From Aggregatilineales bacterium (GTDB lineage Bacteria; Chloroflexota; Anaerolineae; Aggregatilineales; Ch27): a stretch of DNA of 64,000 nucleotides. Each line of letters starts with the position of its first letter. Positions within the stretch are counted from its first letter, which is position 1. Below are positions 2,213-50,901 of the stretch, piece by piece. A program made the position numbers and the translations under genes. The notes beneath the pieces are model-generated. The model was not told the origin of the DNA. It searched no databases and saw nothing but the letters and a program-made list of their open reading frames with translations. The stretch spans positions 1 through 64,000 of the forward strand of contig JARKNX010000059.1 of NCBI GenBank assembly GCA_029976025.1, in the 5' to 3' direction.

Positions 2213-5200
2213 ATGAGGCTGACTGAAGAAGCGGCGAAACGCGCCCTTCAGGACTTGCTGAGGGATTACGACCAGCTTCAGCCGGAAGATCGCAGGCAGA
2301 TGAGCGAGGCTAGCGTCGTCCGGCAGTTCATCGATCGGCTGCTGCGCGATGTCCTCGGCTGGCCTATCGAGGACCCGGCCCGCTACAAATACGAGCTGGT
2401 GACGCAGGTCGGGCGGCCTGATATCACTCTGATCCCGGAAGCGGGCGGTATGATCTTCATTGAGGCCAAGCGCTTCGGCGCCCTCAAGGAGCTGGTAGAA
2501 GCCCGCCGGACTGTCCGCGGCGTGATCACGCCGGGGCAGTTGTCGCTGCCCGGCATGGCTGTTGATCGCACCCCCGAGGAGCAGCAGGCCATCAACTACG
2601 CCTTCGCCAACGGCGGCGAATGGGCTATCCTGACTAATTTCGAAAAGCTGCGTCTGTTTAACGCCCGACGCGACTGGCTGGTGCTCTCTTTTGAGCGTCC
2701 GGCGGCATACCTGGACGAATTCGATCTGCTGTGGGAGCTTGCCTATCCCAATATCGCTAGCGGCAGACTGAGCGTCCTCTCCAATCAGCGTGTCACTGCC
2801 GAGGTGGACACCGACTATCTGAAGTTCATCAATGAGTGGCGGGAGAGGCTGGCGCAGGACCTGGTGACGCACCGCGCTCAAAACCCCTGGGCCTTCCATG
2901 CCAACGGGGGCATCAACCTGCCAGAGCTGCGGGCCGTGGTGCAGCGCATCATCGATCGGCTGGTGATTATCCGCTTCGCCGAAGATCATCTGGTCGTGCC
3001 GCCGGGGACGCTGCGCGGCCTGTACGAGTTGCGCCAGCAAAATCAGTACAGCGATCTTGATCAGATGCTCGATACGCTGTTCCGTCGCTTTGACCAGGCG
3101 CACAACTCTGCCCTGTTCGCCTACGGGCTGGCCGATGACGCCGTCTTCAGCGATGATATCCTGATCGCCCTGCTGCGCCGGCTGTACGAAGCCCGCTACC
3201 GCTCCATGTCGCCCGATATCATGGGCAACACCTACGAGCAGTATCTGGGTAAGGCGCTGGCGCTGACCGACGGCGGCGTGACCACCCGCGATAACCTGGA
3301 GACGCGCAAGAAGCAGGGCAGTTACTACACGCCGCAGGTCATCGTCCGCCATCTGGTGGATACCACGCTGGGCCGGGTGCTTTACGGCACGGTGAATGGA
3401 AAGCCGGACGGCGAGCCTGTCCCCGGCGAGGCGCGCAAGACCAGCCGCGATATCCGCGACCTGCGCGTCCTGGACAGCGCGTGCGGCAGCGGCTCCTTTC
3501 TGATTTACGCCTACGAAGTGCTGGCCGACTTCTACCAGAGCGAGATCGCCCGCCTGCAGGCGGATATGCTGCGCCGCGCCGATGCGCTGGCCGCGGCGGG
3601 AGTCAGCCCCTTCGATCGCGAGCTGGCGCTGGCCGATGAGCGGGTGGAGCTGGAGCGTATCCGCGATTATCCGCGCCTGATCCTGGAGACGCACCTCTAC
3701 GGTGTGGACCTGGACCCGCAGGCTGCCGAGATCGCCGTCGTCAACCTGATGATGCGCGGCATGGAGCGCCGTCAGCAGGAGAAGCGGCTGCCGCTCCTGC
3801 TCAACCAGAATATCAAGGTCGGCAACGGTCTGGTTGGGCTGCGGCCCGATGACCCGCGCCTGGCGGAGCACGCCGCCGGGATCGCCGCCGTCCGCCGCCT
3901 GCGCGAGCGGCTGGTGCAGACCCCTAACGGCCCGGAGCATGACGCTATCATCGCCGATCTGGAAGCGGCGGGTGCGGCGCTGCGGGGGGCGCTGGACGCG
4001 CACACAGCCCCGCACTTCACCGATCTGGAGCATATCAGCCCCTTCCACTGGGGAATCGAGTTCCCGGAAGTGTTCTTCGACGCCGACGGCGCGCCGCTGG
4101 ACAACCCCGGCTTCACCATCATCATTGGTAACCCGCCGTGGGAGATTCTCAAGCCCGACCTGCGCGAGTTCTACGCCCAGTTCGACCCCGACATCGAGAG
4201 CAAGCTCAACCGGGCGCAGGTGGAGCGGCGCATCGCGCAGCTTCAGTTAGAGGACCCGCGCCGTGTGGAGTTGTGGGAGACGCAGAAGCGCACGATTGAG
4301 GAAACCGCCGCTTATATCCGCCGGTCGCCGGACTACACCCGGCAGGGCAAGGGCGACACGGCGACGCACAAGCTGTTCCTGGAGCGGATGTACGGCCTGC
4401 TGGCGGACCGAGGGCGGCTGGGTTATGTAGTCCCGTCGGGCATTTACACCGACCTGGGCACGAAGGGCCTGCGCGAGATGCTGCTGAATGAGGGCAACAT
4501 CCAGTACATCTACAGCTTCAGCAACGAGCGCTTCTTCTTCCCCGGCGTGCATCACTCCTTTAAGTTCGTGCTGCTGGGCGCACAAAAAGGGCCGCAGACG
4601 GACGGCTTCTGGTGCGCGTTCCGCTTCAACCCGCGCGTGGCCGTTGCGCCGGACGACCTGCCGGCGTTCCTGGCCGACCCGGCCAACCTGATCTACATGC
4701 GGCGCGACTCGTTGGAGCGGTTCAGCCCGGACAGCCTGAGCATGATGGAGTTCCAGACCCGGCGGGATTACGAGGTGGCGGAGAAGGTGTACGATGGCTG
4801 GCCGCTGCTTGGACCCCAACCTCACCCTAAATCCCTCTCCGTTGACGGAGAGGGACTTGAAGACGCTTCACCAATGTCCGTTGACGGAGAGGGACTTACC
4901 GCTCGCGGAGAGGGGCTTCAAGGTGCTACCCCTCTCTCCGTCAACGGAGAGGGGCCGGGGGTGAGGTTCCCAACGGAACGGGTGATAGGGAGCGAGGTTG
5001 GGGAGCGCTGGCTCGCTACGCCCGCCATGTGGGACTTGCTCAAGCCGCTGGCGCGGCAGATGCGCGCCGCCCCGACTTTGGCGGAGCGCCTGCTGTGGGA
5101 GCACCTGCGCGACCGTCAGGTGGGCGGGCTGAAGTTTCGGCGACAGCACGGCATCGAGCGCTTCATTGTCGATTTCTACTGCGCCGAGATGCGACTGGTG

Positions 5201-6283
5201 ATTGAGGTGGACGGCCCGATTCATGAGTACACACAGGAAGAAGACGCCGTCCGCCAGCAATTTCTGGAGAGTCAGGGCCTCCGTGTGCTTCGCTTCACCA
5301 ACGATGAGGTGTTGAATGACCTGCCGTCTGTGCTGGCGCGGATTGAACCTCACCCTAAATCCCTCTCCGTTGACGGAGAGGGACTTGAAGGCGCTTCGCC
5401 AATGTCTGTTGACGGAGAGGACCTTACCGTTCGCGGACAAGACTCCCCCTCTCCGTCAACGGAGAGGGGGCAGGGGGTGAGGTTCCCAGGCGTACCGCTG
5501 CCTTGGTCTATCAGGCTCAATCGCGAGTTTGACATGGCAAACGACCGCGCATTACTCAATACCGCAGGGCAAGGCGTGCCATTGTGTGAAGGCAAGATGA
5601 TCCATCAATATGATGCATTCTTTGAACTCCCTCAATACTGGATTGCCCCTGACAGGCTAGCTAATCTATCTGAAACAGTGCGAAAAGAGATTTCAACGTA
5701 TCGTGTAGTGCATCGCCGGATCGCTCGCTCAACAGATGAACGAACACTGATCGCTGCAATCGTTCCAATCAACACTGCCTGTGACACAAATGCAACAATG
5801 GTCTTGATTGAAGGCAGCGCTAACGAGAGCGTGAAATTCTACGTCTGTGCGTTGTTTAATACCTTTATGCTGGACTATGTCATCCGGTACAAAGTAAGCA
5901 CAACGCTGAACATGTTCTACCTCTACCAGCTCCCCCTCCCGCGCCTCACCGCCGGCAACCCGTACTTCGACGCCCTCGTGCCGCGCGCCGCCCGGCTGAC
6001 CTGCACCCGCCCGGAATTCGCCGATCTCTGGCAGGAGGTCATGGGCGCGCCGTGGGACGAGTCGTGTGGGGCGACCGACCCCGCCGAACGGGGGCGGCTC
6101 CGCGACGAGATCGACGCCCTCGTCGCCCACCTGTACGGCCTCTCCCGCGCCGACTTCAACCACATCCTGGGGACATTCCCGCTGGTCTTCCCGGAGACTG
6201 ACGCGGGCCGGGCAAAGCGCGAGTCCCTGCTGGCGGAGTACGACCGGATGGCCACGGTCACCGCGACCTGGCCCCGCCGGTGA
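2213..6283 (+). CDS. Type IIG-like restriction enzyme/N6-adenine DNA methyltransferase, interrupted in frame by a repeat-flanked DUF559 domain
   Basis: N-terminal PD-(D/E)xK-like GRPDITLIPEAGGMIFIEAKR; MTase motif I LDSACGSGSFLIYAYE; motif IV IIGNPPWE; C-terminal target-recognition-like region. Residues from about WPLLGPQ to GVPLPWSIRLNREF are separated by foreign repeat + DUF559 sequence. Confidence 0.9.
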   Translation: MRLTEEAAKRALQDLLRDYDQLQPEDRRQMSEASVVRQFIDRLLRDVLGWPIEDPARYKYELVTQVGRPDITLIPEAGGMIFIEAKRFGALKELVEARRTVRGVITPGQLSLPGMAVDRTPEEQQAINYAFANGGEWAILTNFEKLRLFNARRDWLVLSFERPAAYLDEFDLLWELAYPNIASGRLSVLSNQRVTAEVDTDYLKFINEWRERLAQDLVTHRAQNPWAFHANGGINLPELRAVVQRIIDRLVIIRFAEDHLVVPPGTLRGLYELRQQNQYSDLDQMLDTLFRRFDQAHNSALFAYGLADDAVFSDDILIALLRRLYEARYRSMSPDIMGNTYEQYLGKALALTDGGVTTRDNLETRKKQGSYYTPQVIVRHLVDTTLGRVLYGTVNGKPDGEPVPGEARKTSRDIRDLRVLDSACGSGSFLIYAYEVLADFYQSEIARLQADMLRRADALAAAGVSPFDRELALADERVELERIRDYPRLILETHLYGVDLDPQAAEIAVVNLMMRGMERRQQEKRLPLLLNQNIKVGNGLVGLRPDDPRLAEHAAGIAAVRRLRERLVQTPNGPEHDAIIADLEAAGAALRGALDAHTAPHFTDLEHISPFHWGIEFPEVFFDADGAPLDNPGFTIIIGNPPWEILKPDLREFYAQFDPDIESKLNRAQVERRIAQLQLEDPRRVELWETQKRTIEETAAYIRRSPDYTRQGKGDTATHKLFLERMYGLLADRGRLGYVVPSGIYTDLGTKGLREMLLNEGNIQYIYSFSNERFFFPGVHHSFKFVLLGAQKGPQTDGFWCAFRFNPRVAVAPDDLPAFLADPANLIYMRRDSLERFSPDSLSMMEFQTRRDYEVAEKVYDGWPLLGPQPHPKSLSVDGEGLEDASPMSVDGEGLTARGEGLQGATPLSVNGEGPGVRFPTERVIGSEVGERWLATPAMWDLLKPLARQMRAAPTLAERLLWEHLRDRQVGGLKFRRQHGIERFIVDFYCAEMRLVIEVDGPIHEYTQEEDAVRQQFLESQGLRVLRFTNDEVLNDLPSVLARIEPHPKSLSVDGEGLEGASPMSVDGEDLTVRGQDSPSPSTERGQGVRFPGVPLPWSIRLNREFDMANDRALLNTAGQGVPLCEGKMIHQYDAFFELPQYWIAPDRLANLSETVRKEISTYRVVHRRIARSTDERTLIAAIVPINTACDTNATMVLIEGSANESVKFYVCALFNTFMLDYVIRYKVSTTLNMFYLYQLPLPRLTAGNPYFDALVPRAARLTCTRPEFADLWQEVMGAPWDESCGATDPAERGRLRDEIDALVAHLYGLSRADFNHILGTFPLVFPETDAGRAKRESLLAEYDRMATVTATWPRR
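4818..4968. repeat. Palindrome-rich repeat with AACCTCACCC/GGGTGAGGTT terminal inverted repeats (left copy)
   Basis: Contains CCCTCTCCG-TTGA-CGGAGAGGG hairpin; terminal inverted repeats read directly. Confidence 0.85.
5346..5484. repeat. Palindrome-rich repeat (right copy)
   Basis: Same ends and internal hairpins as 4818-4968, with a few differences. Confidence 0.85.
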
Positions 6284-32669: not shown

Positions 32670-32739
32670 GGCCCCTTTCTCCTCCGCCAGCGGCGTGTGC
32701 TTCCCTCTCCGCCAGCGGAGAGGGACCGAGGGTGAGGTT
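32670..32739. repeat. Dispersed member of the GGTGAGGTT / CCCTCTCCG-hairpin repeat family
   Basis: GCCCCTTTCTCCTCCGCCAGCGG...CCCTCTCCG-CCAG-CGGAGAGGG...GGGTGAGGTT. Confidence 0.7.
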
Positions 32740-32820
32740 CAATGTTAGGCCGGAGAATCAAACCTGCCCCTCGCGAGGGGGGCGAGGGGCAGGCAGATCA
32801 GGGAAACAAGTCAGGACAGA

Positions 32821-49308: not shown

Positions 49309-49683
49309 ATGGGAACTCCTGAAGAACGCTTGCGCATTCTGAAGATGCTGGAAGAAGGCACGATCACGGCGGATGAAGCGACCCGCCTGCTGCAGGCGCT
49401 TGGCGCCGGTCGCAGCCCCGCCGCGCGCGCGACTGCCGGGCGGGAGCCGCGCTGGCTGCGCGTCCGCATCACCGACATCAACACCCAGGAGAACAAGGTC
49501 AGCATCAATATCCCGATGGGGCTGGTGCGTACCGGCATTCGCATGGGGATGCGCTTTGTGCCCAGCGATTCCGAGATTGACTATCAGGAGCTGATGGACG
49601 CCATCCAGAACGGCGAGACCGGCAAGCTGCTGGAGATTGTCGATCAGGAGCAGGGCGAGCACGTCGAAATCTGGGCGGAGTAA
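49309..49683 (+). CDS. Small protein with N-terminal YvlB/SHOCT-like module
   Basis: EERLRILKMLEEGTITADEATRLLQALGAG...LRVRITDINTQENKVSINIPMGLVRTGIRMGMRF. Confidence 0.8.
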   Translation: MGTPEERLRILKMLEEGTITADEATRLLQALGAGRSPAARATAGREPRWLRVRITDINTQENKVSINIPMGLVRTGIRMGMRFVPSDSEIDYQELMDAIQNGETGKLLEIVDQEQGEHVEIWAE

Positions 49684-49748
49684 CCTCATCCCTGGCCCCT
49701 CTCCGTTGACGGAGAAGAGAAAAGGGGCCGGGAGTTAAAGGGTGAGGT
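49682..49748. repeat. Dispersed member of the AACCTCACCC-type hairpin repeat family
   Basis: AACCTCATCCCTGGCCCCTCTCCG-TTGA-CGGAGAAGAG...GGGTGAGGT. Confidence 0.7.
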
Positions 49749-50901
49749 GGGTGAGGCTGCGATACAGCGTATCCATGTCGCGGATCAGCCGGTCTGCGCT
49801 GTAGCGGTCCAGCATGGCTGCCTGCGCCGCGCTGACATCCGGCGGCTCCTGCAGGGCGGCGATCATGGCCCCGGCCAGCGCCGCTTCGTCCCCCGGCGGG
49901 ACGAGCGCGCCCAGCGCCCCTCCCTCCAGCAGATCGGGGATGCCGCCGACCGCCGTGCACACCACCGGGCAGCCGCCGGCCAGCGCCTGAATGACGGCGG
50001 TAGGGGTCCCCTCGTTGTCGCTGCTGATCACCAGCACGTCCATGTCGGCGTAAGCTGGAGCCACGTCGCGCTGCCAGCCGGTGAAAGTCACCGCCCCGCG
50101 CAGACCCAGCGCTTCCACCTGCGCCTCCGCCGCCGCCCGCGTCTCGCCGTCGCCGATGATGACGAAGTGCGCCTCCGGGAGCGCCCGCTTCACTGCCGCT
50201 GCCGCCCGCAGGAACAGATCGTGATTCTTGATCGGGACCATCCGCCCGACGATGCCGGCCAGCGGCGCCGCGGGCGGGATGCCCCAGGCGCGGCGGAAGT
50301 CGCCAGTCCGGCGCGGCGTGCGGGCGTATGGCTCCAGGTCCAGCCCCAGCGGCAGGATGCGGATCTTCTCTTTTGGCGCGATGCGGTAAACATCGGCCAG
50401 CTCGTCGCGCAGATCGCCGGTCAGGGTGAGGATGACGTCGGTCATGCGCCCGATCAGCCGCTCCAGCCACAGGAAGAGCTGCGTCTGGCGCTTCCCGAAG
50501 TATCCCTGAAAGACATGGCCGTGGAAGGTGTGGACGATGATGGGCACGCCGGCCAGCCGCGCTGCCAGCCGACCTACGAAGCCCGCTTTGGCTGTGTGCG
50601 TGTGGACTACGTCGGGCCGCAGGCGGCGGATCAGGCGGTAGACCTTCCACAGCGTGACCAGATCGCGCGCCGGGTGCAGCGCCCGGCCCAGCTCCGGAAT
50701 GATGATCGGCTCCACGCCGAGCGATTCGGCGTAGTAGCGCATATCGCCTTCTTCCGCGCCGACGCTCCCACAGACCAGGATGCTCTCGTACTCCGGCGGG
50801 CCGAGCCGCGCCGTCAGCAGGGCGACGTGGAGGGCCGGGCCGCCGACGTTCAGCCGGGCGATCAGGCGCAGGACGCGGATGGGGCGTTCAGGAGCGGGCA
50901 T
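49735..50901 (-). CDS. Glycosyltransferase family 4
   Basis: IRVLRLIARLNVGGPALHVALLTARL...LAGIVGRMVPIKNHDLFLRAAAAV...ISSDNEGTPTAVIQALAGGCPVVCTAVGGIPDLLE; start ATG 50901 favoured. Confidence 0.93.
   Translation of the reverse strand: MPAPERPIRVLRLIARLNVGGPALHVALLTARLGPPEYESILVCGSVGAEEGDMRYYAESLGVEPIIIPELGRALHPARDLVTLWKVYRLIRRLRPDVVHTHTAKAGFVGRLAARLAGVPIIVHTFHGHVFQGYFGKRQTQLFLWLERLIGRMTDVILTLTGDLRDELADVYRIAPKEKIRILPLGLDLEPYARTPRRTGDFRRAWGIPPAAPLAGIVGRMVPIKNHDLFLRAAAAVKRALPEAHFVIIGDGETRAAAEAQVEALGLRGAVTFTGWQRDVAPAYADMDVLVISSDNEGTPTAVIQALAGGCPVVCTAVGGIPDLLEGGALGALVPPGDEAALAGAMIAALQEPPDVSAAQAAMLDRYSADRLIRDMDTLYRSLTHLTL

Follow-up and report, generated by a model that had tools for sequence, protein, structure and literature searches.

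Palindromic elements inserted in frame within genes are known from Rickettsia, and to our knowledge they carry no nuclease. Other dispersed palindromes, the repetitive extragenic palindromes (REPs), are associated with REP-associated tyrosine transposases (RAYTs), which are HUH tyrosine transposases. Systems of REPs or REP doublets (REPINs) and RAYTs combine dispersed palindromes with a nuclease gene flanked by palindromes (PMC3116915, PMC3686654). Nucleases of the DUF559 family have been linked to EDxHD homing nucleases in cyanobacterial inteins (PMC9403480), a free Vsr-like DUF559 protein has been studied in Caulobacter (PMC12907096), and recombination hotspots of Legionella include transposase/DUF559 segments (PMC12308824). 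Here we analyse the first 64,000 nt of contig JARKNX010000059.1 of an Aggregatilineales bacterium (assembly GCA_029976025.1), referred to as the window, in which a gene for a type IIG restriction-methylase contains a DUF559 nuclease domain between palindromic repeats. This cassette is probably a copy of a widespread mobile element, which consists of the nuclease and flanking palindromic units, spreads mainly in a homing-like manner, and is translated as a domain of the host protein where it lies in frame.

The host open reading frame (ORF; 2213-6283, plus strand, as are all parts of the cassette) specifies an Eco57I-like type IIG enzyme according to its translation and Pfam, and stays open for 1356 aa across both repeats and the nuclease domain. 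The motifs GSYYTPQ, DSACGSGSF, and GNPPW are all intact in the translation, and the protein is interrupted in frame between residues about 869 and 1093. Sequence comparison and folding defined a left repeat of 151 bp (4818-4968) and a right repeat of 139 bp (5346-5484) in the same orientation. They are direct copies, 93% identical over 92 nt at an offset of 528 nt (176 codons). Both have the ends AACCTCACCC/GGGTGAGGTT, which form terminal inverted repeats (TIRs) of the type found in miniature inverted-repeat transposable elements (MITEs), and internal hairpins CCCTCTCCG-TTGA-CGGAGAGGG; both fold much more stably than shuffled sequences, with z -7.8 (left) and z -9.6 (right). Between them, the Vsr/EDxHD-like nuclease domain (5042-5344) was identified by alignment, fold match, and PF04480, which matches residues 944-1044 with an E value of 6e-35 and a score of 119.9 bits against a curated cut-off of 20.6. 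Alignment also revealed a conserved N-terminal lead-in of the domain, ..TP.(L/M)W..LK, beginning near 5015, and an ATG at 5027-5029 (MWDLLKPLARQMR) is a candidate internal start for a putative free nuclease product. A first-pass annotation, made from the sequence alone, had already described the cassette in one open frame of 1356 codons, and its coordinates and sequences were confirmed. It had also placed the nuclease between methylase and target-recognition regions. The position after the methylase fits, with the Pfam matches Eco57I, N6_Mtase, and MmeI_Mtase all upstream of DUF559, but Pfam assigned no target-recognition domain in this protein.

Orthologues of the host enzyme were taken from the same family and order. 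Five of them (L019, L020, L022, L023, L024; 52-77% identical) are uninterrupted at the insertion point, and in L020 the equivalent of residue 869 is joined directly to that of residue 1094 in host numbering. Neither DUF559 nor the repeats were found at the site in any of the five, so that the whole segment 4818-5484 is absent. Because these orthologues are devoid of repeats and nuclease, the cassette is judged by this comparison to be a recent insertion in the type IIG enzyme. The annotation had suggested looking for such empty-site homologues, and the alternative of an ancient domain, with DUF559 but no repeats at this position in related enzymes, was not borne out.

The nuclease itself is well conserved. 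Catalytic-type residues E, D, E, D, and H are invariant in 23 aligned copies, and profile searches matched PDB 3hrl (E 7e-33) and the homing endonuclease I-Bth0305I (PDB 3r3p; E 2.9e-5). An AlphaFold model of the domain with a predicted local distance difference test (pLDDT) score of 91 gave template modelling (TM) scores of 0.78 to 3hrl and 0.70 to 3r3p, and weaker similarity to Vsr. The domain thus has the homologous catalytic core and the conserved acidic and His residues of EDxHD/Vsr-like homing endonucleases, in agreement with the kinship proposed before. Copies carried by the methionine synthase MetH showed nonsynonymous variation (pN) of 0.10-0.24 versus synonymous variation (pS) of 0.63-0.87. 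This strong purifying selection indicates that the DUF559 domain is kept by selection. The protein of known structure in 3hrl, NGO0050, and Caulobacter VsrA contain the same domain, but are specified by stand-alone genes, and a repair-type role has been proposed for VsrA. I-Bth0305I resembles DUF559 in its catalytic domain, but is described as the protein of a mobile intron and as having DNA-binding regions, whereas the domain in the cassette has only about 100 aa, is bounded by palindromes, and resides inside a host protein without splicing.

To place the locus in context, the class, whose nearest named relatives mark it as Anaerolineae-like, was surveyed in 249 genomes, of which 118 contained DUF559. 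Loci were sampled as 80 regions from the class and 80 cross-phylum loci; the share of in-frame copies in the class sample is biased upward, because cases with long ORFs were taken first. Matching repeats on both sides were detected for 85 of 157 DUF559 copies, compared to 6 of 446 control positions, and the density of CCTCACCC/GGGTGAGG was 2.7-3.0 per kb within 200 bp of DUF559 versus 0.18 per kb beyond 1 kb. The suggestion that DUF559 genes elsewhere have such repeats beside them is supported by these counts. In phages, few relatives were detected (three records). Two loci of the sample have a peculiar organization. In one (L118, G233:C65:13500-17900), DUF559 is embedded in long head-to-tail arrays of palindromic units, with at least four units per side at a spacing of about 120 bp; in the other (L110, G202:C18:55000-63000), several broken DUF559 copies are clustered in one 8-kb stretch.

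In-frame copies were found in a variety of hosts, as defined by Pfam. Among genes for DNA methylases and restriction enzymes, at least six kinds harbor them, including type IIG enzymes (Eco57I-like and MmeI-like), type ISP enzymes, DUF1156 methylases, N6/N4 methylases, and HsdR. Other hosts are MetH, LeuRS, IleRS, ValRS, Mfd, and a TIR-nSTAND protein, as well as HisF and DprA, in which DUF559 is N-terminal. Close DUF559 relatives occur in unrelated hosts and at different positions. The arrangement recurs across many assemblies, including those of the isolates Flavobacterium cucumis DSM 18830 and Cellulophaga baltica DSM 24729. The single-cell genome AM-377-L16 contains two in-frame copies, in ValRS and Mfd (L286, L231/L290), and belongs to the Rickettsiales, the order in which in-frame palindromic elements are known. 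With Rickettsia palindromic elements the cassettes share a lifestyle only, palindromic DNA translated in frame in working genes, and unlike these elements the form described here, the ValRS and Mfd copies included, bears a nuclease.

Occupancy of one site could be compared in MetH. In the linker that joins the pterin-binding to the B12-binding part, members of one family are empty, contain a palindrome only, or contain the arrangement palindrome-DUF559-palindrome. The seven sampled inserts form a single clade in the DUF559 tree (support 96 in the Shimodaira-Hasegawa-like approximate likelihood ratio test, SH-aLRT), yet the occupied sites are spread patchily over the host tree, with seven changes of occupancy needed and at least five forced by the starred branches. 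Patchy occupancy of one site would fit an EDxHD homing endonuclease, but this linker also accommodates other repeats. Two inserts from one genus are 68% identical in DUF559, compared to 89% for the MetH proteins, and a sister relation of the two was rejected on protein (approximately unbiased (AU) test, p 0.0036) but not on DNA (p 0.081). In one Flavobacterium MetH, two sites are each occupied by a copy. These copies are 84% identical over a unit of about 455 bp, which is delimited by the hairpins AGCCCCCC..GGGGGGCT, where their similarity ends. The earlier proposal of a self-mobilising element is partly supported by these data: patchy occupancy and a duplicated copy argue for mobility, while the nuclease is the presumed rather than the observed mover.

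These results are best read as a homing-type element with an EDxHD nuclease, which is maintained as an additional translated domain and has neither intron nor intein. Its mobility would be driven by the nuclease. An empty allele of the site would be cut, and the entire repeat-nuclease-repeat unit would then be copied into the break during repair. Copies arriving in frame in an interdomain linker would be translated with the host and spliced neither as RNA nor as protein; the reading frame runs through the repeats, which are predicted to form flexible linkers rich in Pro and Gly, with the nuclease as an extra domain of the protein product. For 12 of 16 in-frame copies, the direct repeats are spaced by a multiple of three nucleotides (p 0.0008 against an expectation of 1/3, 0.04 against 1/2), versus 19 of 45 stand-alone copies. 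From this spacing and the palindrome-only MetH alleles, it appears that recombination between direct repeats may delete the nuclease so that a single palindrome remains, in frame for most in-frame copies. The repeats themselves were not found to be tolerant to the reading frame, as had been claimed, and this explanation was rejected: those of the window are open in only one of six frames, and 43 TIR-bounded elements had on average 2.7 open frames versus 3.5 in shuffled sequences. Since the repeats are not unusually free of stop codons, the copies that lie in frame are probably those that survived selection.

Several observations weigh against an element of this kind. Among 80 genomes with DUF559, 11 were without any of this repeat pattern, and some genomes are rich in repeats without containing DUF559. 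No signal of co-evolution was detected between DUF559 similarity and similarity of the flanking repeats (Spearman 0.02); because the former fails to predict the latter, the repeat sequence may not be what the nuclease recognises. Target-site duplications were not found at the insertion sites compared, including those in the type IIG and MetH genes, where they could not be resolved because linkers vary. The MetH trees are based on short DUF559 sequences and are weakly resolved. Moreover, repeat-like inserts of other, unrelated kinds (QVDTY.., GLAPVQGAGASPAPT.., NYQLP..; L172-L174, L177, L179, L180) are present in the MetH linker of other species, as if dispersed repeats in general could settle there, so that part of the same-site pattern may reflect tolerance of the site rather than targeting. 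At a further MetH site, between the B12-binding cap and the B12-binding domain, the insert of four proteins (L221, L238, L242, L262) takes the place of 12 residues (EAAKQVGDKSGN in the empty L227); insertion was thus accompanied by loss of host sequence.

Alternatively, the palindromes could be an independent MITE- or REP-like repeat moved by another transposase, with DUF559 as a passenger that passes from repeat to repeat by homologous recombination and the in-frame cases as survivors. Solo palindromes are far more numerous than DUF559 copies, palindrome-only alleles exist at the MetH site, DUF559 clades are not linked to repeat sequence, and 12 of the 16 in-frame copies have both direct repeats in one phase. 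We nevertheless consider this explanation unlikely, although it is the most serious competitor. The nuclease is under strong purifying selection, and palindromes are much more common in genomes with strong DUF559 matches than in others (median 15 versus 1, p 3e-12, kinship ignored). Y1 transposases occur in most of these genomes, but none of 18 Y1/RAYT-type loci is flanked by these repeats on both sides, and the repeat-rich genome G171 yielded no Y1 match. A RAYT/Y1 enzyme was rejected as mobiliser for lack of two-sided adjacency, leaving action in trans as a conceivable route. Unlike REP/REPIN-RAYT systems, the cassettes have a Vsr/EDxHD-type enzyme and their copies are intragenic. Less probable still is an adaptive gain, in which DUF559 combined with DNA methylases would serve some new purpose in restriction, repair, or regulation. 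In the class of the window, DNA methylases of unrelated kinds do make up most of the in-frame hosts, and in Caulobacter a functional link connects the free protein VsrA with a cytosine methylase (PMC12907096), but MetH, LeuRS, IleRS, ValRS, HisF, DprA, and Mfd are hosts as well, positions vary, the repeats on either side are mobile, and the domain is missing from close orthologues.

Removal of the cassette by splicing, as a cryptic intein or intron, is very hard to reconcile with the sequence of the window. DUF559 serves as the nuclease domain of inteins in eight copies of the class sample (L093, L095, L097, L098, L100, L104, L106, L107), which form one group in the DUF559 tree, and several of them are located in N6/N4 DNA methylase genes. 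These DUF559/EDxHD inteins share with the cassette the nuclease family, the in-frame position in host ORFs, and often a DNA methylase as host, but they possess a splicing domain where the cassette has palindromic repeats. The window protein has no Intein_splicing Pfam match, the ends of the cassette are without intein junction motif, and an Rfam scan of 4300-6000 detected no group I or II intron, riboswitch, or other known RNA. A chimera caused by repeats during metagenome assembly is scarcely more credible. The genome consists of 225 contigs and many DUF559 loci are close to contig ends, but the same host protein continues in frame on both sides of the cassette, and the arrangement is seen in many other assemblies, among them the two isolates named above.

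The homing-type element preferred here, found across many bacterial phyla and in part in essential genes, looks like a widespread and undescribed kind of selfish gene. Whether it deserves to be called a new class, that is, a homing nuclease bracketed by translatable palindromes and kept without splicing as a permanent extra domain, even of essential proteins and in many phyla, is a more tentative proposition, for which we lean slightly towards doubt. In the literature searched, no description of palindrome-bounded in-frame DUF559 cassettes was found, but novelty is provisional, because subscription papers and preprints were largely outside the search. If the proposal is true, homing nucleases would have a third route of survival inside genes, tolerance at the protein level as opposed to splicing of RNA or protein. 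How palindromic repeats enter bacterial coding sequences is an open question, for which a candidate enzyme would become available, and part of a large family of 'unknown function' would be given a function and a testable lifestyle. For annotation, many multi-domain DUF559 proteins may represent insertions and not functional fusions.

Relatives of the cassette are also present elsewhere in the same genome. A second DUF559 (L102, 3300-4500) is in frame within an MmeI-like type IIG gene, where the direct repeats on its two sides (90% identical over 158 bp) differ from those of the cassette and belong to another palindrome family. These two repeats also have a CCCGCGAAT stretch in common, just beyond the inverted end. 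The palindromes are dispersed in this genome, as is typical of REP-like sequences. In the window, the core 22-mer of the palindrome has 11 matches, compared to none in 100 shuffled windows. The matches include two solo copies without nuclease, one at 32703-32742 on the minus strand and one at 49683-49749 on the plus strand at the 3' end of a gene. The latter begins within the stop codon of the gene before it, its first bases supplying the AA of TAA (gagTAAcctcatccc, 49683-49700).

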